A DNA stretch of 64,000 nucleotides, taken from positions 39,183,811-39,247,810 of the forward strand of contig CM031610.1 of NCBI GenBank assembly GCA_018398815.1. The letters are read 5' to 3'. Below, piece after piece: positions 8,925 through 63,349 of the stretch. The DNA comes from Conus ventricosus (Eukaryota; Mollusca; Gastropoda; Neogastropoda; Conidae). A program made the translations under genes and the position numbers. The notes under the pieces were generated by a model, which was not told the DNA's origin, searched no databases, and saw only the letters and a list, made by a program, of their open reading frames with translations. Numbering within the stretch: the stretch's first letter is position 1; every line of letters begins with the position of its first letter.

Positions 8925-11150
8925 TCACTTTTGAGAGACACACGCAAGGGTTTGATTGACCGCCAAATTTTAGAGACAGACGCAGAGGTTTTGACTGGCT
9001 GTCAATTGTCAGAGCCAAACGCACTGGTTTTGACAGAAAGACAGCCACTTTTCAGAGACTCGCGCACTGTTTTGGTTGACTGTCTTTTAGAGTCAAATGC
9101 ACGAGCTTTGGTTGATTGTCGCCATTTTTTTTTTTTTTTTTTAGCTGTGGAGAAAACGCTCTGGTTTTGATTGACTAACGTTATAGAACCAAAGGAACTG
9201 GCTATGATTGATGGCCAATGATTAAAGCCAAGGGCACTGGCTTTGATTACATTTTTTTTTAGGGCCAAAGGGTTGGTTGACAATCGCTTATTAGAGCCAG
9301 ACGGGTTGATATTAAGTGACAGCCGCCTATGAAAGCTGACAGTGTTTGGTTTTGATTTACATCCACTTTCAGATCCAAATACAAACATACTTTGGGGTGT
9401 TAATGGACAGCTAGCGACGTGCTGCACCCAGAGGGATTTGTTCAGACTGACAACCGCTTTTGAGAGTCAAACGCGCTGACGTTATTTGATATCATTCCCC
9501 CCCCCCCCCCCAAGAACCAAAACAGTTTGTTTTAAACTTACAGCTATTGAATAGAACCTGACGCATTTGTTCTAAACGACAGCCATAGATTAGTGCGAAG
9601 CGCACTTGTTTGATTGACAGACTCTGATTAGAGCGAAACGCACTTCCTTTGATTGACAGACTCTGATTAGAGCGAAACGCACTTGTTTGATTGACAGACT
9701 CTGATTAGAACGAAACGCACTTCCTTTGATTGACAGAGTCTGATTAGAGCGAAACACACCTTGTGATGGACAGCCTCTGATTAGAGCGACACGCTCTTGT
9801 TTTGATTGACAGACTCTCATTAAAGGGAAACGCACTTGTTTTGATTGACAGACTGTCATTCGAGGGAAACGCACTTTTTTGATTGACAGACTGTCATTAG
9901 AGGGAAACGCACTTGTTTTGATTGACAGACTGTCATTAGAGGGAAACGCACTTGTTTTGATTGACAGACTGTCATTAAAGGGAAACGCACTTGTTTTGAT
10001 TGACAGACTCTCATTAGAGCCACACGCACTTGTTTTGATTGACAGCCTTGATTTGAGTGAAACATACTTGGTTTGATTCTGAACAATTAAAGTAGTGGGG
10101 GAAAACAAGCGCAGGCTAACAATTCTTCAGTCATTACAGTAATACAAGTAATACTTGGTTTGATTGAGAGCCTCTGATTTAGAGCCAAATGTATTAGTTT
10201 TGATCAACTGTCACTGATTAGAGTCAAACTCATTGGTTTTGAGTTTTAGTCACTGATTAGATCCAGATTTACTTCTTTGGATGGAAAATACCGGTATTTT
10301 GATTTAAAGCTCTTAATTAAAGACAAACATCATTGTTTGATTTACTGCAAACATCGATTTGAGCGCGAATCACTGGTTTTCATTGAAGACACTAATTAGA
10401 TCTTCTTCTTCTGCGTACGCAAGCTGATACTCCTGCGGACACTCCCTATATGGACAGACAAGTATTAATCCCATCTACCCAACAAGGCAGTGGAGTTTTG
10501 TGTGTATGACCGTTTTTGTTATCCCGTCATTAAGGCAGCCATACTCCATCTTCGGCGAAACTAATTAGATCACATGCACCATTTGTAGTAGAAACCACCA
10601 GTTGGTGACCCAGGTTCTGAATCTAGGTAAAACACTGATTAGAAACAAACCCATGGCTTTGATTGTAAATCCTAATTAGAGTCAAGCAACTTTTAAATTG
10701 AAGACAGTAATTTGAGCCAAACGTTCTGATTTGGCCTGAAAACGCTAATTAGAGCCAAATGCACTAGCGTTAATTGTAAACACCTGTGTAAAACGAGAGA
10801 GCGAGGTGTTGGCTTTGATTAGAAACACTGATAAAAGACGGACGTGTCGGCTTTGCTTACAACAACAGTTAGAGACAAACGCTGCGCCAGCTTTCTTTAA
10901 AACACCAATTAGAGACAAACGCACAGGCTTTGATTGTGGGCACAGATGAGAGACATCACACTGGCAGTGATTAAAGACGTTGAATTAATAGAATACAGAA
11001 AGCACTGGCTTTGATTTTAAACACTAATTAGAGATGATCTCACCAGCTTTGCTTCAAGAGGCGGAATAGAGACAAGTACAGTGGCTTTTGGCTCCAAAAA
11101 AGCACTGGCTATGATTGTAAATATTGATCAGAGATGAACGCTTGAATGCG
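8925..11150. repeat. 39-bp minisatellite, left copy (homogeneous core, diverged edges)
   Basis: The unit is 39 bp, built on TTGATTGACAGACTGTCATT followed by AGAGGGAAACGCACTTG. The core, about 12 units, runs from 9600 to 10070. The edges to 8925 and 11150 carry older versions such as AATTAGAGACAAACGCACTGG. Because 39 is a multiple of 3, it stays open in several frames with a 13-residue repeat (for example SLSIKTSAFPSND). I take those frames to be a by-product. A 157-bp SINE interrupts it. Confidence 0.9.
10403..10559 (-). mobile_element. Short SINE-like retroposon with (GAA)n tail, left copy
   Basis: A 157-bp insert is flanked by a perfect 12-bp direct repeat, ACTAATTAGATC, at 10391-10402 and 10560-10571. 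Read on the minus strand it starts TTCGCCGAAGATGGAGTATG and ends GCAGAAGAAGAA. A GAAGAAGAA tail with ACGGTCATACAC upstream matches, from memory, a SINE common in snail genomes. It inserted into the 39-bp array after the array formed. Confidence 0.8.
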
Positions 11151-21420: not shown

Positions 21421-21599
21421 CCCCGGCGGTGTTCCCCAATTTGCTTTATCTTTTTTTGTGCCCCGAGCCCGACTGGTATGAAATCAAGATTAAATGAGTA
21501 GTGAAGGATGGTGGGCCGTGCCCTTCTTGGGGGGCTTTGGGGCAGAAGGGGGAGTGGGGGATAAAAAGTGTGTTTGACAGCTGGGCGAAAATTTTTTTG

Positions 21600-24500
21600 T
21601 CAAAACACAACACCAAAGGTTCGTCACAATGAATCATTAATAATGAAATCCTCATCATATTCTTCTTTTTTCCTCCCTAGGGGAGGGGGGGGGGGCATTT
21701 TCTGCAAATCCACCCAAAAGGTTAGTAGCAATGAATCTTAAAACATAAATCACATTCATATTCTTCTTTTCCCCCCTCCTAGGGAGGGGGGTGGGGCTAT
21801 TTCTGCAAATCACAACACCCAGGTTAGTGCAATGAATCATTAATAATGAAATATCATATCACATTTTTCTTCTTCTCCTCCTCCTAGGGAGGGGGGGGGT
21901 GGGGGAATTTTCTGTCAAAAACACAAAACCCAAAAGGGTTTTAGCAATGAATCTAATAATGAAATCATCTCATCATATTCTTCTTCTTCCCTCCCCCTAG
22001 GGGAGGGGGGGGGGGGTATTTCTGTCAAACACAACACCAAAAGGGTTTCGTACAATGAATCATTAAACATGAAATCACAAATCAAATTCTTTTTCTCCTC
22101 CTCCTAGGGGGGGGGGGTGGGGCTATTTCGTCAAATCACAAACCCAAAAGGGTTTGTAGCAATAATCATTAATACATGAAAACATCATCATCAATTCTTT
22201 TCTTCTCCTCCTCCCCGGGGAGGGGGGGGGGGGCATTTTTTGTCAAATCACAACACCAACAGTTTCGTGCAATGAATCATTTTAAACATGAAATAAACAT
22301 CATCATTTCTTCTTCTTCTCCCCCTTAGGGGAGGGGGGTGGGGATATTTTGTCAAACACAAAACCAAAAGGTTAGTACAATGAATCTTAATACTGAAATA
22401 TCATCATCACATTCTCTTCTTTCCCTCCTCTAGGGGGGGGGGTGGGGCTTTTCTGTCAAACACACACCAACAGGTTACGTGCAAGAAATCATTAAAACAT
22501 AAATAACATCATATTCTTCTTCTTTCCTCCCCCTTGGGGGGGGGGGGGCCCTTTTTTGTAAAAACCCAAAACCAAAAAGGTTATAGCAATGAAACATTAA
22601 TACATGAAAACATCTCATCATCTTTTTTTCCCCCTCCCAGGGGAGGGGGTTTGGGGGATATTCTGTAAATCCAAAAAACCAACGGTTTTTCGTGCAATAA
22701 TCTTAATACATGAATCTCTCATCATATTTTCTTTTTCTCCTCCTCCCAGGGGAGGGGGGTGGGGCATATTTCTGTCAAAACACAACACCAACAGGTTTTT
22801 TACAAAGAATATTAAAAAATGAAAATCATTTTAACATATTTTCTTCTTCCTCCTCCTTTGGGGGGGGGGGGGGGGCATATTTCGTCAATTTCCCAACACC
22901 AAAAAGGTTAGTACAAGAATCTTAAAATTAAAAAAATCATCAATTTTTCTTTCCTCCCCTGGGGAGGGGGGGGGCATATTTCTTTTTAAAAAACACACCA
23001 ATTACGTAGCAAGAACATTAAAACATGAAATCACATCATCATATTTTTTCTTCTCCTCCCCTAGGGGAGGGGGGGGGCTATTTTTGTCAAACCCCAAAAC
23101 CAACGGTTACGTAGCAAAGAATCATTAATACAGAAAACATATCATCATATTTTTTTCTTTCTCCTATGGGGGGGGGGGTGGGGCAATTTCTGTCAAATCA
23201 CAACCCAACGGTTACTAGCAATAATATTTTAAAACATGAAAACATCATCATCAATTTTCTTTTTCCCTCCTCCTAGGGGAGGGGGGTGGGGCTATTTTTT
23301 GTCAAAAACAACACCAACGGGTTTCGTAGCAAGTTTATTAATACATGAAAACATCATCTCAATTCTTCTTTTTTCCTCCCCAGGGGGGGGGGTGGGGGAT
23401 ATTTTGAAAACACAACACCAAAGGTTTTCGTGCAATGATTTAATAGAAATCATCATATCATATTCTTTTTCTTCTCTCCCCCTGGGGAGGGGGGGGGGCA
23501 TATTCTGTCAACCCCAACACCCAAAAGGTTACGAGAATTAACATTAAAACTGAAATACTCATCATATTCTTCTTCTTCCCCCCCTAGGGGGGGGGGTGGG
23601 GCATATTCGTAAAACCCCAAACACCCCCAGGTTACGTAGCAAGAATCATTAAAGAAAACCCTCCACAAAACTTTTCTTCTCCCCCTCCAGGGGAGGGGGG
23701 TGGGGCTTTTTGTCAAACCACAACACCAACAGGTTTTCGTACAATGAATCTTAATACATGAAATCATCATCACATATTCTTCTTCTTTCCCCCTCCAGGG
23801 GGGGGGTGGGGGATTTTTCGTCAAATCCCAAAAACCAACAGGTTCGTAGCAAGAATCATTAATCATGAAAAACTCATACAAACTTCTTTTCTCCCTCCCT
23901 AGGGGGGGGGGGTGGGGCATTTTCTGCAAATCCAACAAAACGGGTTACGTGCATTTAATCATTTAAAACATGAAATCTCATCATCAATTTTTTTTCTCCT
24001 CCTCCTAGGGGGGGGGGGGTGGGGCATTTTCTGTCAAAACACAAAACCCCAAAAGGTTCGTAGCAATGAATCATTAATACATGAAATCCATCATCTTCAC
24101 ATTCTTCTTCTTCCCCTCCTCCTCCTGGGGAGGGGGGTGGGCATATTCTGTCAATCCAACAAAACGGTTACGTAGCAATGAATCTTATACAAAAAAATCA
24201 TCATCCATTTCTCTTCTTCTTCCTCCCCTTTGGGAGGGGGGTGGGGCATATTTCTGTCAATCACAACACAACGGTTACGTAGCAATGAATCTTAATATTT
24301 GAAATCATCATCATCAATTCTTCTTTTTTCCCCTTCCTCTAGGGGAGGGGGGGGGGGGGATATTTCGTCAAACCCAACACAAACGGTTACGTAGCAATGA
24401 ATCATTAATACATGAAATCATCATCATCATTTCTTCTTCTTATCCTCTCCTAGGGGAGGGGGTGTGGGCATATTTCTGTCAAATCACAACACCAACAGGT

Positions 24501-24745
24501 TACGTAGCAATGAATCATTAATACATGAAATTCATCATCATCATATTCTTCTTCTTCTCCTCCTCCTAGGGGAGGGGGGGGGGCATATTTCTGTCAAATC
24601 ACAACACAACAGGTTACGTAGCAATGATATCATTAATACATGAAATCATCATCATCATATTCTTCTTCTTCTCTCCTCTAGGGGAGGGGGGTGGGGCATA
24701 TTTCTGTCAAATCACAACACAAACGGGTTACGTAGCAATGGGTGT
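21600..24745 (+). repeat. 110-115-bp satellite array, about 29 units
   Basis: Each unit carries, in order, CATTAATACATGAAATCATC, a TTC/TCC run, CCTAGGGGAGGGGGGTGGGG, CATATTTCTGTCAAATCACA, and ACACCAACAGGTTACGTAGC followed by AATGAAT. The clean units at 24440-24720 are spaced about 115 bp apart. Units further left look shorter because bases are missing. CTCC...TAGG...GGAG can pair into a hairpin next to a run of Gs. Two units in the opposite orientation sit at 34673-34862. Confidence 0.95.
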
Positions 24746-24775
24746 TATTATATGAAATCAACATCACATTTTCTT

Positions 24776-24914
24776 CTTCTTTTCCTGGTTTTCCGCCTCC
24801 TCCCCCCTCCTCTCCTCCTCTCCTCCTCCTCCCTCCTCCTCCTCCTCCTCCTCCTCCTCTTCTCTTCTTCTTCTCCGCTCCCCCTCCTTCTTCTTCGTCT
24901 CCTTCTTCTTTTTC

Positions 24915-43343: not shown

Positions 43344-44963
43344 TACACATGGAAAAAAGTTAAGCAACCCTCACATTTATCGCTAAGGACAAGATATAAT
43401 ACTATTTAAATGAAAGCAACACTCAAGTAAATCAAAATGGTCTTTATTCCATGAAAGTATGACACTGTCCCATTACCGAAACAATAGAAATATGGTTCAG
43501 TGTTTGAAAATTCAACTGCAAAATGGTGAACAAAGATGTGCGCCATTTTTGAACAAAAACATGGCATGGTTAAGTTTGAAAATAACAATTTCATCCAGTT
43601 GATGCCGAAATTAATTTTGGTTGGAAAACAACAATGAAAGTGTCCAGATAGCATAACAGCAAACAAAAATCAATACCGGGTGTATCCTCCCTGTACATTG
43701 ATGACTGCCTGAATCCTTCGTCTCATCCCTCCAGTGAGTCGTCTGATCTGCTGAAAGGTGATCTGCTGCCACTCCCGATGCAATGCTGCTTCCAGTTCCT
43801 GGAGATTTTGCAGAGGAGGGTCCAGTTTCTGTATTCGACGGCCAAGCAAGTCCCATAGATGCTCCAGCGGATTGCGGTCCGGACTCATGGCAGGCCATGG
43901 TAATGTTGTCACCGCCTCTTGCTGGAGGTATGCTGTGACTGCTCTTGAACGATGAGGCCGGGCATTGTCATCCATGAACACAGGTCTTGTGGCTAGTGGG
44001 TGGTCGTCAAAATGAGGCACAACAGCTGGCTGCAGTACCTCCCGGATGTAGCGATCTCCTGTCAAGTTGCCACGAATGGTCACCAGGTCCATCTTGCAGT
44101 CGTGTGAGATGCATCCCCACACCATGACGGAGCCTCCGCCGAAAGGTACAGTTTGTTTGATGTTCCTTGCAGCATAGGCTGTTTGGGGATGCCTCCATAC
44201 TCTCGCTCTGCCATCTGTAACATGCAGTAAGAAGCGGCTTTCATCAGACCAGTGGATCTTCCTCCAGTTCCTTAGGTTCCAGTGCTGTCGGGCAAGACAC
44301 CAGGTCAAACGTAATCTCTTATGATTGTCTGTAAGGTGTGGACGCTTGATGACTCTTCTTGCCCTCAGTCCTATAGCTTGCAAGCGATTTCTAACGGTTT
44401 TTGTGGACAGAGGTCGATTTGGCAGCCACTGCCGTTTCAGTGTGGTTGAAGTTGCGAATCGCTGTTGCCGTACCAGTCGGTGGAGCGCCCTGTCTTCACG
44501 CTGGGTAGTGACACGTGGTCTGCCTGATCGTGGCCGGTCATTCACTGTGTTCGTTTCAGCATGTTTTCTTATCAATCGGCTGATTACTGACGTTTGGTAT
44601 CCCAGTTGACGTCCAATAGCTTTGCTGGTCATACCAGTAGAATGCATGCCAATAATTTGCCAACGTTGTCCTTCTGACATTCTTCTTCGTTCCATCTTGT
44701 TGGACAGTGACTGTGCAGTGAGAAACTTACTCAAAAACGCACGTTTCTGTGGAGTGACCAAACTTCATTTTTGCGAGTGCACGGATGGTGTGATGCTCGT
44801 GCACGCCACATGCAGCCAGAGACTCACTGTCACACTTGGCTGGTTTTATCATCTCTATGGAATACCCGTCTTGTCAGAATTACTATTTTGTGCCATGTTA
44901 ATACTCACAGTTACCTGGGACGGTATGTTTCATTTAGGGTTGCTTAACTTTTTTCCATGTGTA
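43344..44963 (-). mobile_element. Tc1-like element A, right copy, looks complete
   Basis: It is 1620 bp with perfect 28-bp terminal inverted repeats (TACACATGGAAAAAAGTTAA then GCAACCCT). The TA target duplication is at 43342-43343 and 44964-44965. One long transposase frame fills most of the interior. Ends and coding frame look undamaged, so it could be a recent or still competent copy. Confidence 0.95.
43670..44695 (-). CDS. Tc1-like DD34E transposase
   Basis: This is a cut-and-paste transposase of the Tc1/mariner superfamily, acting in the nucleus on the flanking inverted repeats and inserting at TA. I chose the ATG at 44695 (MERRRMSEGQRW), giving 341 residues, the usual Tc1 length. An upstream in-frame ATG at 44761 would add 22 residues not found in the related element B. 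In order: N-terminal helix-turn-helix (EGQRWQIIGMHSTGM...), SGRPRVTTQRED (GRPR-like hook), second HTH, then the RNase H-like core with IHWSDESRF (first D), FMDDNARPH (second D) and NPLEHLWD (E). I count 34 residues between the second D and the E, so DD34E. All three catalytic residues are present and the frame has no break. Confidence 0.95.
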   Translation of the reverse strand: MERRRMSEGQRWQIIGMHSTGMTSKAIGRQLGYQTSVISRLIRKHAETNTVNDRPRSGRPRVTTQREDRALHRLVRQQRFATSTTLKRQWLPNRPLSTKTVRNRLQAIGLRARRVIKRPHLTDNHKRLRLTWCLARQHWNLRNWRKIHWSDESRFLLHVTDGRARVWRHPQTAYAARNIKQTVPFGGGSVMVWGCISHDCKMDLVTIRGNLTGDRYIREVLQPAVVPHFDDHPLATRPVFMDDNARPHRSRAVTAYLQQEAVTTLPWPAMSPDRNPLEHLWDLLGRRIQKLDPPLQNLQELEAALHREWQQITFQQIRRLTGGMRRRIQAVINVQGGYTRY

Positions 44964-45478: not shown

Positions 45479-47697
45479 TTCATCTCTGATCAATATTTAC
45501 AATCATAGCCAGTGCATTTTGGAGCCAAAAGCCACTGTACTTGTCTCTATTCCGCCTCTTGAAGCAAAGCTGGTGAGATCATCTCTAATTAGTGTTTAAA
45601 ATCAAAGCCAGTGCTTTCTGTATTCTATTAATTCAACGTCTTTAATCACTGCCAGTGTGATGTCTCTCATCTGTGCCCACAATCAAAGCCTGTGCGTTTG
45701 TCTCTAATTGGTGTTTTAATGAAAGCTGGCGCAGCGTTTGTCTCTAACTGTTGTTGTAAGCAAAGCCGACACGTCCGTCTTTTATCAGTGTTTCTAATCA
45801 AAGCCAACACCTCGCTCTCTCGTTTTACACAGGTGTTTACAATTAACGCTAGTGCATTTGGCTCTAATTAGCGTTTTCAGGCCAAATCAGAACGTTTGGC
45901 TCAAATTACTGTCTTCAATTTAAAAGTTGCTTGACTCTAATTAGGATTTACAATCAAAGCCAGTGGGTTTGTTTCTAATCAGTGTTTTACCTAGATTCAG
46001 AACCTGGGTCACCAACTGGTGGTTTCTACTACAAATGGTGCATGTGATCTAATTAGTTTCGCCGAAGATGGAGTATGGCTGCCTTAATGACGGGATAACA
46101 AAAAACGGTCATACACACAAAACTCCACTGCCTTTGTTGGGTAGATGGGATTAATACTTGTCTGTCCATATAGGGAGTGTCCGCAGGAGTATCAGCTTGC
46201 GTACGCAGAAGAAGAAGATCTAATTAGTGTCTTCAATGAAAACCAGTGATTCGCGCTCAAATCGATGTTTGCAGTAAATCAAACAATGATGTTTGTCTTT
46301 AATATAAGAGCTTTAAATCAAAATACCGGGTATTTTCCATCCAAAGAAGTAAATCTGGATCTAATCAGTGACTAAAACTCAAAACCAATGAGTTTGACTC
46401 TAATCAGTGACAGTTGATCAAAACTAATACATTTGGCTCTAATCAGAGGCTCTCAATCAAACCAAGTATTACTGTATTACTGTAATGACTGAAGAATTGT
46501 TAGCCTGCGCTTGTTTTCCCCCACTACTTTAATTGTTCAGAATCAAACCAAGTATGTTTCACTCAAATCAGAGGCTGTCAATCAAAACAAGTGCGTGTGG
46601 CTCTAATGAGAGTCTGTCAATCAAAACAAGTGCGTTTCCCTTTAATGACAGTCTGTCAATCAAAACAAGTGCGTTTCCCTCTAATGACAGTCTGTCAATC
46701 AAAACAAGTGCGTTTCCCTCTAATGACAGTCTGTCAATCAAAACAAGTGCGTTTCCCTCGAATGACAGTCTGTCAATCAAAACAAGTGCGTTTCCCTTTA
46801 ATGAGAGTCTGTCAATCAAAACAAGAGCGTGTCGCTCTAATCAGAGGCTGTCCATCACAAGGTGTGTTTCGCTCTAATCAGACTCTGTCAATCAAAGGAA
46901 GTGCGTTTCGTTCTAATCAGAGTCTGTCAATCAAAACAAGTGCGTTTCGCTCTAATCAGAGTCTGTCAATCAAAGGAAGTGCGTTTCGCTCTAATCAGAG
47001 TCTGTCAATCAAAACAAGTGCGCTTCGCACTAATCTATGGCTGTCGTTTAGAACAAATGCGTCAGGTTCTATTCAATAGCTGTAAGTTAAAACAAACTGT
47101 TTTGGTTCTTGGGGGGGGGGGGGGGAATGATATCAAATAACGTCAGCGCGTTTGACTCTCAAAAGCGGTTGTCAGTCTGAACAAATCCCTCTGGGTGCAG
47201 CACGTCGCTAGCTGTCCATTAACACCAATGTATGTTTGTATTTGGATCTGAAAGTGGATGTAAATCAAAACCAAACACTGTCAGCTTTCATAGGCGGCTG
47301 TCACTTAATATCAACCCGTCTGGCTCTAATAAGCGATTGTCAACCAACCCTTTGGCCCTAAAAAAAAATGTAATCAAAGCCAGTGCCCTTGGCTTTAATC
47401 ATTGGCCATCAATCATAGCCAGTTCCTTTGGTTCTATAACGTTAGTCAATCAAAACCAGAGCGTTTTCTCCACAGCTAAAAAAAAAAAAAAAAATGGCGA
47501 CAATCAACCAAAGCTCGTGCATTTGACTCTAAAAGACAGTCAACCAAAACAGTGCGCGAGTCTCTGAAAAGTGGCTGTCTTTCTGTCAAAACCAGTGCGT
47601 TTGGCTCTGACAATTGACAGCCAGTCAAAACCTCTGCGTCTGTCTCTAAAATTTGGCGGTCAATCAAACCCTTGCGTGTGTCTCTCAAAAGTGACTG

Positions 47698-47768: not shown

Positions 47769-49427
47769 CAAAGAAAAAAGTTAAGCACCCCCTTATATTT
47801 TCAACTGTCAGAATTGACAACAATGTATGACCCCAAAATTTTCAATTTTGTCAAGAATGGTGTGTCATTGAAAGGATAAAACCAGTCAGGCGTGTATGTG
47901 AAGCATTGTCATGGTGTGGCATGCACGTGCATTACGGTTTTTGAAATTTTTAAAATTGAGGTTTGGTGAGTCATCCAGTTTAGCAATCACAGTTGGTTTT
48001 AAGAAAAGATATTCTTTGCAAAGAAATATGGTGCGAAGGAGGATAGCAGAGGCCAAACGATGGCAAATTATTGGCATGCATTCCACTGGAATGTCCTTCA
48101 AAGCAATCGGGCTTCAATTGGGCTTCCACTACACTGTCATCAGCCGGCTGGTGAGGAAACACCAGCAAACCAACCATGTGCAGGACCGCCCACGATCTGG
48201 CCGACCACATGCAACGTCACAGCGCGAAGACAGGGCTCTACTTCGCATGATACGCCATGAGCCATTCGCCACAAGCACCAGCTTGAAACGACAGTGGATG
48301 CCTAACAGACAACTTTCCACAAGAACAGTGCAGAACCGCTAAAAGCCTGCGGATATAAGGCGAGGAGGGTTATCAAGCGCCCTCTGTTGACTGACCACCA
48401 CAAAAGACGGCGTTTGGACTGGTGTCTCGCTTGGCGGGGTGGAACCTGAGGAACTGGAGAAAGATACACTGGTCGGACGAAAGCCGATTCCTGCTGCACG
48501 TCACTGATGGAAGATCAAGGGTTTGGAGACGCCTAAATACAGCCTATGCGCCCAGGAACATACAGGCAACTGTTCCTCACGGTGGCGGTTCCATAATGGT
48601 CTGGGTGTGCCTCTCACACGACTGCAAGCTGGATTTGATTACCATTCGAGGAACCCTCACAGGCGGACGGTACATCCGAGCAAAGATAGTTCGCCCTACG
48701 GAGTGCGTACAGTCTTTGATCCGAGATGTCCTTGAGCCGGTCGTTGTGCCCCATTTTGACAACCACCCACTTGCCACCAGACCAGTGTACATGGATGACA
48801 ACGCCAGGCCTCATCGTGCTCAAGCAGTAACAGGCTTTCTCCAGCAAGAAGCAGTGCAGACCCTGCCATGGCCTGCCATGAGCCCAGACCTCAATCCACT
48901 GGAGCACATCTGGGACATGATTGGCCGTCGTTTGCAGACCTTGGACCCTCCTCCACAAGATCTGCATCAACTGGAAGCTGCACTGCATCAGGAGTGGCAG
49001 CAACTGACGATGCAATAGATCCGGCGACTGACTGGAGGGATGCGACGCAGGGTTGAGGCGGTCATCCAGGCTCAGGGCGGATTCACGGGCTACTGAACAT
49101 TTTCATTTTTCTTTGGTTTATGGAGATTCATGGCAATGTTTTCAAATGAAATTGCCACTTTCATTAAGCACTATGATTTTGTAATGACCATACTTTTCAT
49201 GGGTATTTTTTCACGGGAAAATGTCATTGATCTTTCTTTAGCAATACCACATTCTGTTTATGATTTTGTATATCATTTGTTGTGTTTTCATGTTGTCAAT
49301 ATCTTTATTTAATAAAAACAGAAGAAAAAAATGTTCCCCATTAAACAGTTTAGTACAAAAAAGAATTTCAGTTTCTCCAAACTAAAAACCATTGGGGGTG
49401 CTTAACTTTTTTCTTTGTATATATTTA
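47769..49427 (+). mobile_element. Tc1-like element B, right copy
   Basis: It is about 1.66 kb with perfect 23-bp inverted ends (AAAGAAAAAAGTTAAGCACC plus CCC). It sits in a TA microsatellite, as expected for a TA-targeting transposon. The inverted repeat shares GAAAAAAGTTAAGCA with element A, so the two families are related. Confidence 0.92.
48028..49096 (+). pseudogene. Tc1-like transposase B (frameshifts and one nonsense codon)
   Basis: A DD34E transposase related to that of element A. It starts MVRRRIAEAKRW and has SGRPHATSQRED, IHWSDESRF (about 48463-48489), MDDNARPH (about 48790-48813) and NPLEHIWD (about 48895-48918). I count 34 residues between the last D and the E. Lesions seen: loss of a base near 48338 (NR then stop, where L-K-A-C-G is expected), a disturbed segment near 48430-48445, and a TAG at 49016-49018 where element A has a Gln codon. 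The catalytic triad is intact but the frame is not. The C-terminus ends GGFTGY. Confidence 0.92.
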
Positions 49428-49576: not shown

Positions 49577-51478
49577 GAAACCGCTCCTGCTCGTGGACCC
49601 TCAGAGAGAGTGGTGCCAACCCCGGGACCTGAAACTGTCGTTCTGCCAAAAAATTTGTATGAAAAGCGGAAGATGACCTCGAAAACCCAGATCGTGGAGA
49701 TCATGAAGTATCCCCGACTTCCGGGTGGTATCGTAGGCCTTCTCCAAGTCGAAGAAAATTGCCACTGCATGCTGTTTGTTCAGAAAGGCGTTCCGAAGTG
49801 TAATTCCAGACGAATCAAATGGTCAACCGTAGCCCCTATGTTTGCGGAAACCACACTGTTCTTTCGCCAAAAGGCCATCGGTTTCCAGTTTCCCACATGA
49901 GCCTAGCGTTGACCATTTTCTCCATCAATTTACAGACACAGCTGGTCAAAGCTATGGGACGGTAGTTTGATGGATTAGAAAGATCTTTACCAGGTTTGGG
50001 ATGGGAATAATGAGGGCTTTTCGCCAAGAGGGTGGAAAAAAACCTGTAGTCCACACATGGTTGTATACCTGTAGCAGATGTTCAGACCTTCTTGCGGAAG
50101 ATGTTTCAAACAGTTGATAATGGATTTCATCTATACCTGGAGAGGAATCGCTGCAAGAAAGTAAGGCAGATTTCAGCTCGTTTAACGTGAAAGGAAGATT
50201 TAGTCTTCCATGTTGTCTGACGAAAAATTGCAGGTGATTTTTCTTTAAGGGTTTTATTTTTGACAAAAGTGGCTGATTTGTTAGAAGAGGAGGAATTCTT
50301 TTCAATGGTTGAAGCCAGCAGATTAGCAACTGCTTTTTTCTCTGTTATTAAAGAGTCAGCAAACTTGAGATGGTTCACAGTGGGACAGTGTTCTTCCCTT
50401 TGATTTTTTAATGATGTTCCACACTTTTTTCTTAGAAGTTTTCGATGTCAGCCTGGAGCAGAAGCTTCTCCAGGACCGACGTTTACTGATTTTAAAAGTG
50501 TGTCCTCGATTTGGCACGGAGTTTCTGATGGGCTCGAGCGTTGGGACCCGAAGGTCGTTGGTACACCTGACGCTGAGCCCGTTTTCTAACTTTGGAAATT
50601 TTGTTGGCAGTCTGAATCGAACCAGGTGTTTTGGCATTTGAAGTTTATCGGAAGACACTGGAATACAAGTTTTAGCACACTTGATCACAGTGTTAGTCAG
50701 TGATTCAGCTGGGTCTGGACTCTGAAGAAAATCAGTGTCCTGGAATTCTTTTGAAATAAATGGCTGCAAATAGATCCCAGTTTGCTTTCTTATAATTTAG
50801 ATGTTGAGAGACAGAGACGTGTTCAGTTATTACAGGTTGTAGAAGGACAGGGAAATGGTCACTTCCGTGCAGATCGTCATGGACAGACCACTCATAGTCC
50901 AGACCAGCGAGGGGTCACAAACCGACAAATCTAAACACGAAAGTGAACCTGTGGAAGAGTGGAGGTAAGTTGCAGATCCGTCGTTCAGACAACACAAATC
51001 TAAATCCGAAAGGGCATCCTCAATTAGCAGACCTCTGGATGACGTACCGACACTACCCCAAAGAGGATTGTGACCGTTAAAGTCACCCAACAGCAAAAAA
51101 GGTCGAGGAAGTTCTCTTATCAGACTGACAAGGTCCTGACGACAAACCGGGACAGAAGGTGGAAGATAAAGGGAACGATTGTCACAGTCTTGTGGAGAGT
51201 GCCCTCTCGAGCCACCGCAGAAGGGATGTAGACGAGCGACAGGACCTATACAGCAACGTTTTGTGTGGAGAAGGGCAACACCGCCCGACAGTCCCCCCGT
51301 GGACTGGTAGTGAGGTTTTGAGAGATAATAAGCAGCCGCGTAAAGTCTTCTGCTTTGAATTTGAGTTTCCTGAAGCGCCACGACGGAAGGTTTTATAGAA
51401 TGTGACACAGAAGCTGCCGCTCCGCAAAGGTTGGATTTTAGTCCACGGATATTCCAATGGATGGTGCAGAGGGCGCAA
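49577..51478 (-). pseudogene. LINE ORF2: AP-type endonuclease and reverse transcriptase, partial
   Basis: The endonuclease nicks target DNA and the RT copies the RNA at the nick. Seen on the minus strand: VALQETQIQ (catalytic Glu, about 51360-51390), LLLGDFNGHNPLWG (about 51055-51100, Asp and Asn of the active site), SLSCLDLSVCD (about 50915-50950) and SDHFP in another frame (about 50855-50872). RT then shows PPSWRKALIIPI (about 50010-50045), NYRPIALTSC (about 49940-49970) and FFDLEKAYDT (about 49735-49765, RT motif A with its Asp). Frameshifts occur near 50860, 50340-50400, 49990 and 49900. The gap ends it before the second RT Asp pair. Confidence 0.85.
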
Positions 51479-51529
51479 AGGAGAGAGATCAGGTCATTCT
51501 CCTCAACGTCTGTTGCTAAGGTTGGTAAA

Positions 51530-52850
51530 TTTATTTGAGGTTTTGTACTGGGCTGTGTTGGTCTTCAGACCTGCTGGCAGACTTGCCAACAGGTGTAGAA
51601 GTATGGCATTGGGAGCGTGGAGGTTTCTTCCCATCTCCACCATCCTCCACCAGGGTTGCACTCCCTTGCCCGCCCGGCATGGACAGAGGAGGTTGAGGAT
51701 GGGGTGCTGGTTTTTTATCTGCTCCAGCAGCAGATGTTGTAGACGGCTGGGCAGTCTGAGGGGTGGCGGATTTTTTGCCTACCACCAGGGGCAGTCACTT
51801 TGGGTTTGAGAGGTGGTGGACCTGTTCCACCAGAGTGACAGTTTTTCTTGCAATGTCTTCGAAAACGTTTTATTTTACAGTTTATCCGTCTGACAGCCGA
51901 CTGACCGAGTTGGAACAGTAAGGACTTTTTTACGGTCCGAAAGCATACCGAAGAAGCTGTCGCGAATGTCCAAGCCCTGTTTCCGGGCCTTCCAAACAAG
52001 GAGATCTTCTTTTCTGTTTGAACTCTTTGTATTGCAGATTCCTGAATCCAAAAGGGACAGTTTCGAGAAGAAGGAGGATGGTCGCACGCAATTTGCACAA
52101 TTGTGCCGGATCTTTACACGGCCCATCATGGGTTGCTTGCAGCAAATTTACCGCACACTCATGCCCAGAACAACGGTTCTGCCATGGCCACACTTCTGGC
52201 ATCTGAAGGCCCTCAACGGGGAAGGAAAGTTATAACTGAACCCGGACAATCAGGTAGCCAATTTGATGCGCCGGAGGGCGCACAGGGTTGCAGAATGTCA
52301 GAAAGAGGGTGTTTGTGTCCATGTCCCTCTTTCTGCAACCTTCTTTACTGTCACACCTGGGACGCCTAGCTCGTTTTGTCTCTGATCTCTGAAACACTGA
52401 TAAATCCCTGCAGGCGAATCGCTTCTCTTTCGATGAATATAAACTTTTGTGGGGGTAGTCACCATGATCTCCCTGGTCCACAAGCTTTTTTGCCTTCAGC
52501 TGCTGTTCAGATTGTTTCTGTGATTTAATTGAATTAGAAAACGAGCCGTTCCTCAACCTCTTGATGGACAGAGGGTCCACTGCTAAGCCTTGAAGAACGT
52601 TGCCTTGGCATAGCAAAGGGCTCAAAGCTGAAAGGGTCTTTCTTGCTCCGTCCTTACATAAACGATGCCAGGAAGCCCAAAACCTGTCTTCTGTCGTATC
52701 TCCATAACCGAATGCTGTCGAATCTTCGATATCCCTGAAATAGGGGATGCTGCATTTCCTCTTTTTTGGGGGGATTGTGTTTTGAAAAAAGCATGGTATT
52801 TTATTATATTTCATCCTCCCTTACCACCAACTTGGAGATCCAACTAAGGG
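51530..52850 (-). pseudogene. LINE ORF1, gag-like protein with zinc knuckles
   Basis: A nucleic-acid-binding ORF1 protein of a Jockey-type LINE. A segment with ARRPRCDSKEG, TNTLFLTF and PPAHQIGYL (about 52260-52400) matches the conserved block before the knuckles in such proteins. CQKCGH and CSGHEC...HDGPC (about 52095-52195) form CCHC-like knuckles, split by a one-base shift at a GGCC run. The Pro/Thr/Ser-rich tail runs to about 51530. At least three frames are used, so it is broken or mis-sequenced. The start codon is not certain. Confidence 0.75.
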
Positions 52851-57590: not shown

Positions 57591-57891
57591 AGGTGTACCA
57601 AAACTTAGTTGATATGTCTGAACAGCGTTACTATTGCTATCATTATGTATGGCTTGGAACTGGGCACCCTGTGTTATTAAAAGGCAACAATTTAAAAAGG
57701 AAAATGCCAAAGAAAAGACAGGAGAAAAAGGAGCTGATTCACAAACCAAAACAAGCCTGCAATGACCAAGAGAAAAGACAGAAAAAAAAGAGAACAGGAA
57801 ACTAATAGAAAATGACACAAATATACCTGTCAAATTACAAAAGAAAAAAAAAGAGAAAAGCATCTTTGACAAAGACTTAATCCAAGCAGAC

Positions 57892-58029
57892 TTCTTGTAA
57901 GCCATTCCATCAGATTCTTGTAAGCCATTCCATCAGATTCTTGTAAGCCATTCCATCAGATTCTTGTAAGCCATTCCATCAGATTCTTGTAAGCCATTCC
58001 ATCAGATTCTTGTAAGCCATTCCATCAGA
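57892..58029. repeat. 23-bp tandem repeat, six perfect copies
   Basis: The unit TTCTTGTAAGCCATTCCATC plus AGA is repeated six times with no change. The lack of change points to very recent expansion. Confidence 0.97.
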
Positions 58030-58904: not shown

Positions 58905-59071
58905 AATATATAAAGACTTAAGAGTTTCAAACAATAACCATGTTTCCAATAAGACTGCATGTTTTGTTTCAGAGCTGGGTCGGTTTGCTTCAGAAGCATT
59001 CATTCTCACCCTGAGACTCTTGTCCGGTGGAACAGTTCTGAGTGGTTCAACAAAAACCTCAAACTCCGCAC

Positions 59072-59119
59072 TAGTCTGGTAATATTTTCGGCTGACCTTG
59101 AACAAAGTCTTTCAAAGCT
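59072..59119 (+). repeat. Left terminal inverted repeat
   Basis: 48 bp. The outer 17 bp and inner 27 bp are identical to the right end in inverse orientation. Confidence 0.8.
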
Positions 59120-59359
59120 GTCCTTTGGAAAATAAGTAGATGATACCAATCAGTAAAAGATTATGAAGAATCGAGGAGAATTGACTGGCGCGTTTAAAAA
59201 AATAATAATAATTTCGAAATTAGTTTTTCACGTTACGAGATTTTTGACAACTTTCGCCGACCATACACTGATCATGCACTTCCCGCTAACTTCCGCATTC
59301 CTGCGCGCGTGTAACAGCGACACTCGCTCTCTTGGCATTCCTGCGCGTGTGTAAAAGCA

Positions 59360-62300
59360 ATGGCAGCCGAGGCGACTGATTCATCACCAGAACAACAATC
59401 ATGTTTGCCACCATCAGAGGTGAGTCTTTTTGCAAAATGTATAGATTTAATCATTTTAAACTGACCCGTTTTGTTTACCGCACCTAACAGCAGCAGTTAT
59501 CACTTGTTCGCTGGCATCTGAGAGTGTTGAAAGAGTGGAATCAGGTCAGTGCAGAGTCAAGCCGGTTTAGTATGGCGGACTGTTTGTGACACAAACGCGC
59601 CTTTCCCGCAAGTGGGCTAGTCTTCACGTCTACAACATTACCTTTTTGCGTTCGCTTGTCTTACTGCTGTAACTGTTTTATAATAGGTTTCTAATTCTGT
59701 GAAAGGAAAAACAATACGAGCTTAGTAAGTCATTTAGTCGGGCTAGTCTTCACGTCTACAACAATTACCTTTTCGCTTGTCTTACTGCTGTAACTGTATT
59801 ATAATAGGTTTCTAATTCTGTAAAAGGGAAAAAACAATACGAGCTTAGTAAGTCATTTAGTCGGGCTATGTTCATTTTCACCCCCTTGAAAGCACCACAG
59901 CAACTCATACACATATAAACTCACCCCCAAAGTTAAGCAACCCAGTGAAAGATTTCAAAACTTATTTTTTAATTAATCACTCGGAGACATTTCGTTGAAG
60001 AACTCAAAACGTGTCGGCCAAAACACAGTCACACATCCACTATTTTTTTCATGGCATGGTCCATTTCGGGTTTAAAATTTTATCACCGTTCAAACGTTTT
60101 TGCAACGTCCAAAATAGTTGCTTAACTTTTTGGCTTGAGTTTAGTGTTAGTGTTTCACTTGACGATTTTAATGCCATCGTATTCTTGTTTTTAGGAACAA
60201 GAAGAAAAACCTGTATCATCTGTGGAGAGGGGTTGATGCCAAGCCAGTTACGCTCACAGAAAAGGGCTGCAAAACCATCAACAGCATCAGTGCAAAATTT
60301 GGAGAAGCTGTGTTTGCTAAGTCAGGTGACAATGTCCATAAGAACTGTAGAGATCGCCACACTAACAAACATTATTTTCCATCAAGGGATCCAAAACTTG
60401 CAAAGTCACCTCGAAAACGTCGTGCACCAGAACAAGTCGTAGAACATGGAAAAACCCCTTTGTGTTTGTTTTGCGGTCAAAAGGCGAAAGAAAGCAAGAA
60501 AGGCGGGCCCAAGGATGGCCATCACATCATCAGACGTACAGACCGTTACTGGGCTGGTCTGTCGTTGGATTTAGTCATAGAGCAAACCCTCATGCGCAGT
60601 CTAAGACCGTTGGCGGATTGTTCAGGGGCTCTGGCATGGGTGAGAGCGAGCGATCGATTTGGTTGTTGAGCATGCCAGCTTGCGCACGTGTCAATGACTC
60701 TATGCAGGAAGTGACAGGAGTGGCCTTTGTGACAAGTGAGCAGCACAAGGAAGCCAGCAAAGCCAGGCAGAAGCAGGACCATCAAGACACCAAAACACTG
60801 GTAACCTTCTTCCAGAGACGAAATCCATTCAACATGTGTGGCAGTCTGAGAAGTCTCTCAAACGATAGAACTGCAGCAGAATCTGTGAATGTAAATACAG
60901 CAAAAGAACTGGGCCAAGTTATTCTTGACAGAATGAATGGATCATCCGTTGCAGACCTGAAGCTGAGGAGAAGTGATCAAGCTGTCACCATTGTCACGCA
61001 GACGAGGGGGCCCAAAATGAATGAGCTGATCACCGTCAATTATGCTCTACTGTTCCAGAGATTGGTCAAGGTTGCACAGACCAGCCCTGAAACACTCCAT
61101 TCAGTCTTCGAATTTGAGCTGACAAACATACCAACATCGCTCTTTGAGACATCTGGACTCCCCCGTCCAGCCAGCAAGCATCTTTGGCTGACTGTCTGTG
61201 GTCACTCTCTGCACAGGAGAATGCCAAGTTGCCAGATGATGTCAAAGTAGTCCTTGACGGTGGTGATCTTCTGCATCGTTTGTCTTGGGCAGAGGAATTC
61301 CCTACAACCAAGTTGTGGAGAGCTACGTTGACTACGTCGTCCGGAACTATGGCACACGAGCAAGTGTGGTGTTTGACGGATATGTCAGCGGCCCATCCAC
61401 CAAGGACGCCACGCACCTTCGGCGACAAAACGGTCGCAAAACATCCTGCGATTGTTCACTTTGATGGTGAAATGCTCATCTGTGACACGAAAGAGAGCTT
61501 TCTCTCTAACCCAGGTAACAAACAACGCTTTATCTACACCCTTGCACAGTCCTTCATGGAAAATGGAATTAAAATATTTCATGCCGATGGTGATGCAGAC
61601 TGCCTGATTGTGCAGAAGCCCTCACAAAAGCCACAGAACATGCAGTTGCTGTTGTTGGGCGAGACACTGACTTGCTTGTGCTGCTGTTGTACCACTTCCA
61701 GCCACAAGGTTGTAACGGGGTTTTTTCGACACAGGAGGGAACATCTGGGACATTGGAGCAGCACGAGAAAGTCTAGGCCCACAGATCTGCAGGAACATTC
61801 TGTTTGCCCATGCACTTGGGGGCTGCGACACCACTAGCAGCCTCTTCAACATGGGCAAAAAGCAACCGGTGATACATCTGAGGGAATCCGCCGTTTTCCG
61901 TCAGATGGCACAAGTCTTTCGCAGCGGCACCAAGCGCACCACACAAGAAGAGATCATCAAAGCGGGAGAGAGGGCTCTGGTGGCTTTGTATGGTGGAGCA
62001 GAAGACGACAGCCTAAACAAGCTGCGCTACATCATATACAACCGCCAGTTAGCCAACCCCAAAGCAGCAGCAGTGGACGCCAGAAGGTTGCCCCCAACAC
62101 ACTCTGCTGCGAAGTTCCACTCCCTTCGAACTTATTTTCAAGTCCAAATATGGAAACGGCTTGAAAGTGAGCAGGCTATGCCGCTGTCTGCAGAAGACTG
62201 GGGTTGGGGCGTGACAGATGGCATGCTCCTGCCTGTTTATACTGACGCTGCTGTTGCCCCTGGGAAGACTTGCTGCACGTTGTCACATGCAGCTGCAAGA

Positions 62301-62434
62301 CAGGCTGTGGAGTAAGTTGTGGGTGTCGACAGCATGGACTGGTCTGTGCAGCAGCTTGTGGTCACTGTCGTGGGGAAAACTGTACTAACAGCATAATCAG
62401 TGACACAGCTGCTGATTCGGATGTCGAAGACTGA
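59360..62434 (+). pseudogene. Zinc-finger / FEN-XPG-like nuclease / CXC protein, two exons, frameshifted
   Basis: Exon 1 is 59360-59419 (ATG, 20 codons, then GTGAGT). The acceptor TTGTTTTTAG ends at 60194. Seen in order: CIICGEG, VHKNC and CLFCG (Cys/His zinc site, about 60210-60480), EQHKEASKARQKQ and RRNPF (about 60738-60830), LFQRLVKV and SLFETSGLPRP (about 61050-61170), VVLDGGDLLHR (about 61247-61280), VVFDGY (about 61368-61385), ADGDADCLI (about 61583-61609), GRDTDLLVLLL (about 61658-61690), AHALGGCDTTSSLF (about 61808-61849) and a terminal CSCKTGCGVSCGC...CGHC...C cluster (about 62286-62380) like a CXC/tesmin domain. The acidic motifs plus GGCDTTS resemble the FEN/XPG nuclease fold. I know the family as unnamed, multi-copy proteins of marine invertebrates. 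Most frameshifts sit at homopolymers, so it may be intact in the animal. Confidence 0.75.
59420..60194 (+). other. Intron of the nuclease gene with a 126-bp tandem duplication
   Basis: Donor GAG|GTGAGT and acceptor TTTTTAG|GAAC. A segment starting GGGCTAGTCTTCACGTCTAC is repeated at 59614 and 59740 (periods 126 and 123), with the start of a third copy at 59863. Confidence 0.65.
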
Positions 62435-63153
62435 GGTCAAAGGGTGAACGGGCTGTTACGGACAACTTGCATCTCAAAGGTTGGTCGAAGTTTCCATGTC
62501 ATTCCCTTAGTGAGAAACATTGCATTCAGTGCTGTAGTTGGAGTTATCAATCTTTCAATTGTATTGTGGAGAGGTACATGCCAATGAATTACTATTTTCA
62601 CTTGTGGTTAACACTGGACAGGTTTTAGGTCATCCTGACATATGCATGTTTAAACTTTTTCTCTTGTGCCGGACCGAGCAAAATTAAGGGGGGTACAATG
62701 AGACGGTGTGTATTTTGATACTTAACTGAGGAATGTCCTCGACTGTGCTGTGTAGTTCAATTCAAAATAGTTCATGTTTAAGTTTGCAAACAATTCCACT
62801 TCCAATCTTGGGCTGCATGTCTTGCTGGTGATGTACAATCCGACATGCATGCCAATTTGTCACGTGGTTTAGGGTCTCGTTTTGATATTATTGAGTATAT
62901 CAACCAAACTGCTGAAGACTGGTACTTAGGATCTTTATATTTGGCTACTTACATCTTTTGAAGCATAAAAGTAACTTGAGTTTGCCAGTTTGTTATAGTG
63001 AATGCTGATTTATGTCACGGAGTGGATTTTTTCCCGTTTTCGCTTATCGTGCAAGCCATTATTCCGCTAAAAAAAAAATTTCCCCCATTACATTTTTCTC
63101 GATTTTGGTTTGTGAGAAGGGTCATGTATTTCGAGTTTAAAAAACATAAAACG
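62435..63153 (+). other. 3' region of the transposon, non-coding
   Basis: No open frame with motifs. It is AT-rich toward the right end. Confidence 0.5.
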
Positions 63154-63211
63154 AGCTTTGAAAGACTTTGTTCAAGGTCAGGGCATATCAGGCCAAAATA
63201 TTACCAGACTA
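63154..63211 (-). repeat. Right terminal inverted repeat
   Basis: 58 bp, the inverse of 59072-59119 with a 10-bp insertion between its two conserved blocks. Confidence 0.8.
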
Positions 63212-63349
63212 CACACTGGCTGCTTCAGTCTGTGCTCATGTGGTCGGCAGCTGCAACGGATCAGAGGTCTTTAAACCTGACGTCTCGTCTCTGCTGAGTG
63301 ACGGATGTTTCCTCATGATTTCAAGGGTAATGTTCATTTGTCCTTGCTG
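63212..63349 (+). CDS. Possible host exon beside the transposon
   Basis: The frame LAASVCAHVVGSCNGSEVF...LMIS is open to a consensus donor TG|GTGAGT at 63350. A weaker donor AGG|GTAATG at 63327 is the alternative. A further open segment, 63367-63530 (acceptor TTTTCACAG, donor CAG|GTACGC), reads EEEEKIHLKVRVGPTEVL, but the 40-nt intron this would imply is very short. The protein is not recognised. It may be the right half of an exon whose left half is at 58973-59071. Confidence 0.25.

Follow-up and report, generated by a model that had tools for sequence, protein, structure and literature searches.

How does a DNA transposon move when its gene shows a nuclease but no DDE core? The question is raised by a 4,140-bp element, read from the sequence at positions 59072-63211 of a 64,000-nucleotide stretch of the Conus ventricosus genome (hereafter the window; GCA_018398815.1, contig CM031610.1, positions 39,183,811 to 39,247,810). 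An earlier note on the window had described inverted ends enclosing one gene for a protein with a zinc finger, a FEN/XPG-like nuclease and a CXC cluster, had been reminded of Academ transposons, and had left two options: a catalytic core hidden in this protein, or dependence on another copy. As detailed below, the window copy is very probably an internally deleted, likely helper-dependent form of an approximately 6.9-kb DNA transposon with a single predicted zinc-finger/winged-helix/DDE/FEN/CXC protein.

Ends and coding parts of the window copy

The near-perfect inverted ends were borne out. The arms pair 59072-59119 (48 nt) with 63154-63211 (58 nt) and are identical over 17 nt at the tip; the right arm then has 10 nt more, after which 28 nt match exactly. 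With equal base frequencies, about 2e-10 exact inverted matches of 28 nt would be expected by chance in 5.5 kb. The 10 extra nt were also present in 7 of 8 right ends compared among the genome copies. The suspected CAC target duplication was found on both flanks, and the proposed intron reads GT...AG at its borders. All three protein features could be recognised, though frame-shifted in this copy. The following features were mapped:

59069..59071, no strand: left target-site duplication CAC (flank comparison)
59072..59119, + strand: left terminal inverted repeat, 48 nt, tip TAGTCTGGTA (arm pairing; 40 left ends in the genome)
59360..59419, + strand: predicted exon 1 (MAAEATDSSPEQQSCLPPSE) with a GT donor at its end (sequence reading)
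59420..60194, + strand: predicted intron 1, GTGAGT...TTTAG (sequence reading)
59614..59868: direct duplication of about 120 bp within intron 1, present in many other copies too
60195..60507, + strand: start of exon 2, with CIICG as a remnant of the first CCHC zinc finger and CLFCG as that of the second CxxC
60507..60508, + strand: junction of the internal deletion, where longer copies have pieces b (2192 nt) and c (578 nt)
60508..61205, + strand: end of the transposase part, a helix with the predicted catalytic Glu, then a linker; both Asp absent
61172..62191, + strand: FEN1/EXO1/XPG-like nuclease domain, approximate bounds, frame-shifted here
62246..62434, + strand: CXC cysteine cluster (nine Cys conserved across the family)
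63154..63211, - strand: right terminal inverted repeat, 58 nt, including the 10 nt that the left arm lacks
63212..63214, no strand: right target-site duplication CAC (flank comparison)

The zinc-finger remnants were located by tblastn with residues 19-112 of the relative P0034 and by the conserved C/C/H/C positions. The predicted catalytic Glu codon lies at 60580-60582, within DLVIEQ. The gene of this copy does not encode the normal protein of the family: it is internally deleted, which a single copy does not reveal, and has lost both predicted catalytic aspartates, keeping the glutamate.

When the element and one CAC are removed, the flanks (58961-59071 and 63215-63340) rejoin as a single open frame of 78 codons bordered by acceptor-like and donor-like sites, and the element may for this reason sit in a host exon. 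The 78-codon frame gave no match in Pfam and nothing convincing in the Protein Data Bank (PDB).

Copies in the genome and their deletions

The genome searched comprises 3.52 Gb in 12,740 contigs. The first 65 nt of the element match at least 40 left ends, in addition to one weaker match (79%, opposite strand); since 40 of 68 candidates were scored, the counts are lower bounds. The 37 fetched loci cover 39 left-end matches, with the window as the 40th, and the mapped set consists of 40 loci (L009-L047 and the window) scored for six coding markers. At least one marker was present in 38 of these 40 loci (none in L016 and L039). An independent genome search for the nuclease domain led to 40 places and coincides with the 65-nt search, in that 27 of these places adjoin a left end. 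One further place, L047, was fetched for its gene and has both ends, the ends of L046 are unread, and the other 11 lie outside the fetched set.

Among the 31 raw left-right end pairs, 24 had equal 3-bp flanks; at ten loci there was no right end within the fetched stretch. The seven pairs without equal flanks comprise two from L009, two from L021 and one from L022, all tandem arrays, and single pairs from L010 and L024. Counting the L009 pairs as a single dimer and leaving out the three array rows of L021/L022 gives 27 units, of which 25 carry an exact 3-bp duplication, compared with 14 of 702 mismatched pairings used as a control. A 4-bp duplication was found in none of the 31 end-pair rows. 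The target triplets differ from locus to locus. At L024 the right tip has one extra T, and allowing for this T, the duplication would read GTA.

In the alignment to the window copy, most other copies run on beyond element position 1436 with coding sequence that the window copy lacks, and L046 continues from this sequence into the downstream half of the window copy. The element can thus be described by four pieces, a (1,436 nt), b (2,192 nt), c (578 nt) and d (2,704 nt), which sum to approximately 6.9 kb, a full length assembled from partial copies. In the window copy, a is joined directly to d without b and c, a junction that occurs in no other of the 40 mapped loci. All three residues of the predicted triad (both D and the E) are kept at one locus, L046. 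Both D without the E are kept in two loci (L015, L027), the first D in seven more loci with the CXC end and two without it, and the E only in three (the window, L043, L047). At a further 12 loci, markers for the zinc finger, the nuclease and the CXC cluster are present but D-D-E is not, and the remaining 13 likewise lack all three residues. These absences were scored within the fetched stretch, and as ten loci have no right end there and some contain unread bases, a few could be more complete. The region between the second D and the E region was found at a minimum of five near-identical places, one of them complete (40 scored of 216 candidates).

Several deletion junctions recur. The commonest, b330-d699, is found for example in L017, L018, L024, L029, L035, L037, L038, L040 and L041. 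A junction at b~1445-d1624, whose left point is uncertain owing to a CT repeat, is shared by L019, L023, L025, L028, L032 and L034, and further junctions are b805-d1869 (L011, L014), a1068-d637 (L010, L020, L045) and a1079-c1 (L043, L047). Identical junctions lie at loci with different target triplets, for which the simplest reading is that the deletion came first and the spread afterwards, so the protein was most likely supplied to the deleted copies by another copy. The window copy, too, was likely moved by protein from a longer copy at another locus, because the part with both predicted catalytic aspartates is gone. With regard to the two options of the earlier note, dependence on another copy fits the window copy, and a core in the same protein fits the family.

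Over the nuclease region, the 14 copies compared from the most frequent deletion subtype (about 1.22 kb each) differ from their consensus by 41 substitutions, and this low divergence of approximately 0.24% makes recent movement likely. The same copies contain 58 indel bases relative to L046 (27 + 31). As indel bases outnumber substitutions, long-read assembly errors are suggested as the source of the frameshifts, and the claim that the window copy is crippled therefore rests on the deletion and not on the frameshifts.

The protein family and its place among transposons

Two queries were used to collect relatives. A 621-aa frame (L046:3472-5334) returned 378 relatives and a 1,077-aa relative returned 761, and the best 120 of each were listed. 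Many of the latter 120 are approximately 1,480 aa long in one frame, and their organism names include Porites, Mytilus, Mercenaria and Littorina; the former 120 add Dysidea, Lytechinus, Holothuria, Apostichopus, Nymphon, Nucella and the fish Coilia. The family is accordingly widespread among animals and mostly unnamed, in line with the earlier note. On this evidence, transposase-nuclease fusions would account for many protein database entries, most of them without a name and a small number labelled "uncharacterized" or "Tesmin/TSO1-like CXC".

Conservation was read from an alignment of 90 proteins of 1,370-1,620 aa out of 238 (numbering of the Mercenaria protein P0236). The zinc-finger positions C4 C7 H48 C51 and C89 C92 H152 C155 and nine cysteines near the C-terminal end are invariant or nearly so. 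The triad D424, D584 and E865 is present in 90/90 each, and in a wider set that includes fragments the first D was found in 33/35, the second in 79/80 and the E in 84/84. The nuclease residues D1093, D1132, D1203, D1205, D1227 and D1288 are present in 90/90 and D1229 in 89/90. FEN1 has a set of seven metal-binding carboxylates, and a predicted FEN fold with the seven is present in the family. The predicted order of the full protein is two CCHC zinc fingers, a winged helix, a DDE core, a FEN1/EXO1-like nuclease and the CXC cluster. The core, on the same chain before the nuclease, is modelled as an RNase H fold with a helical insertion; 160 residues separate the two Asp, and the predicted model has helices also between beta2 and beta3.

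Profile searches returned little. Pfam gave no match on eight window frames, NCBIfam none on three relatives, and the PDB none of significance by sequence profile. DUF6589 (PF20231) reached at best 26.4 bits against a curated cut-off of 27, with 15 of 57 members matching at E 0.01, and a precomputed DUF6589 label stands on P0054, P0074 and P0133 among the matches listed. The same 57 members gave no match to a helicase family at E 0.01 and none to THAP. The scans of GTDB genomes and IMG/VR contigs yielded pattern matches only and no confirmed relative, so they lend no support to a viral or bacterial origin.

The nuclease of AcademX transposons is XPG-type and fused to the transposase. AcademX is given 3- or 4-bp duplications and AcademH 9- or 10-bp ones, a difference linked to nuclease versus helicase (PMC10045372), and Academ is listed among the DDD/E superfamilies (PMC9587614). 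The present family shares the encoded nuclease, here FEN/XPG-like, the exactly 3-bp duplications, the D-D-E triad and a predicted RNase H fold. On these described features it is likely AcademX, and the Academ lead of the earlier note fits at this level. AcademH, with its helicase and longer duplications, differs from the present family with its 3 bp and no helicase match; should the assignment to AcademX hold, the two would share a superfamily. Academ is described as expanded in bivalves, with a mean curated length of 5,565 bp there, which is of the same order as the approximately 6.9 kb here (PMC10294476). However, according to the same source, Academ in molluscs is found almost exclusively in bivalves, whereas gastropods (Littorina, Nucella) and other animals are among the relatives here.

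The closest structural match to the predicted core is the P element/THAP9, which has a helical insertion before the Glu helix, as the model predicts for this family; Transib, Hermes and RAG1 are further structural neighbours, and the predicted core would place the family beside the P element, Transib, hAT and RAG1. The family differs from the P element and THAP9 in carrying a FEN nuclease and a CXC cluster, and from FEN1, EXO1 and XPG in that its nuclease follows a predicted transposase core in a fusion protein, with that cluster after it. The hAT superfamily makes 8-bp target duplications, as against 3 bp here. An 8-bp duplication is also given for the P-like elements of zebrafish, where full copies are few and internally deleted ones numerous, as here (PMC7776569). 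The C/DxxH motif of P and hAT between the second D and E (PMC9587614) is replaced by G612 and H615, invariant in 15/15, with H615 in 90/90. In the literature searched, we found neither a DDE-FEN fusion nor an Academ-P structural link, which does not prove absence, as the key Academ paper lay outside the coverage.

These neighbours also admit a rather unlikely alternative, namely a separate, unnamed branch of P/hAT/RAG-like transposases that acquired its FEN nuclease independently. The link to AcademX through described features instead of an Academ reference sequence and the weak DUF6589 score in Pfam would suit it, while the 3-bp duplications together with an encoded nuclease agree with the AcademX description (PMC10045372), and several named homologs are from bivalves, where Academ has expanded (PMC10294476).

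That the nuclease itself moves the element, the window gene being a complete protein, is extremely improbable; no DDE core is visible in the window alone, but the full-length relatives with their invariant D-D-E largely refute the idea, and the window junction is unique among the mapped loci. It is also very improbable that the DDE-less copies encode a zinc-finger/FEN/CXC repressor of the full element, like KP for the P element, and are retained for that. The commonest deletion type can indeed be in frame, as in L024 (622 aa with zinc finger, nuclease and CXC), L041 (569 aa without zinc finger) and L036 (533 aa without CXC). However, the 26 singleton changes since amplification in its 14 copies (24 nonsynonymous, 2 synonymous, 0 stops; expected 18.9, 6.0 and 1.1) gave no sign of purifying selection.

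In the preferred reading, a deleted copy served by a fuller one, the ends, 3-bp duplications, shared deletion junctions, domain order and conserved residues come from the sequence and the folds from prediction, while we infer DNA binding, cutting, flap trimming and movement in trans. The zinc fingers, winged helix and CXC cluster would bind the inverted ends, and the DDE core would cut them and join them to the target across a 3-nt stagger, leaving the 3-bp duplication. The FEN domain may remove 5' flaps from the non-transferred strand or the target joint. An element without the DDE part would retain its ends and be moved by the protein of a fuller copy. Whether a fused FEN domain sets the 3-bp stagger is now testable, given the contrast in duplication length between the Academ lineages (PMC10045372), and the genome offers a natural case, with one copy keeping all three catalytic residues alongside many deletion copies.

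Tandem copies, a second family and other repeats

L009 is a head-to-tail dimer whose copies share one TA at the joint (CCAGAC-TA-GTCTGG) and which is flanked as a unit by TTC; L021/L022 form an array of head-to-tail tandem copies, and the L022 joint likewise has a single TA. Such joints could be explained by unequal repair after cuts at the element ends or by a joined-end intermediate. The single joint TA and the one TTC duplication around the whole L009 dimer suggest a copy-out/paste-in route, which we consider unlikely, in which the DDE core would join the ends via the shared TA as a circle or dimer, FEN would resolve flaps and the joined form would insert as a unit.

A second, related family is represented by a 4,579-bp element at L049 (tip TAGTCTGATC, imperfect right tip, duplication GAA), which is approximately 70% identical at the nucleotide level to the beginning of piece d. 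It also lacks a stretch of the transposase part, and L048 has the same right end.

Elsewhere in the window, two Tc1/mariner-like transposases were found. The one at 43670-44764 (- strand) has a frame of 363 aa in which HTH_Tnp_Tc3_2 and DDE_3 score above cut-off; the other, at 48395-49018 (+ strand), is shorter and has DDE_3. A LINE-type endonuclease fragment occupies 50830-51564 (- strand; PF14529 and PF03372 above cut-off). A 39-bp repeat occurs at 9588-10078 and 46541-47035, in opposite orientation 37 kb apart, with about 12.7 copies each. Tandem arrays were also found at 21594-24780 (104-bp unit, about 30 copies) and at 57887-58029 (23-bp unit, 6.2 copies, 99% matches).
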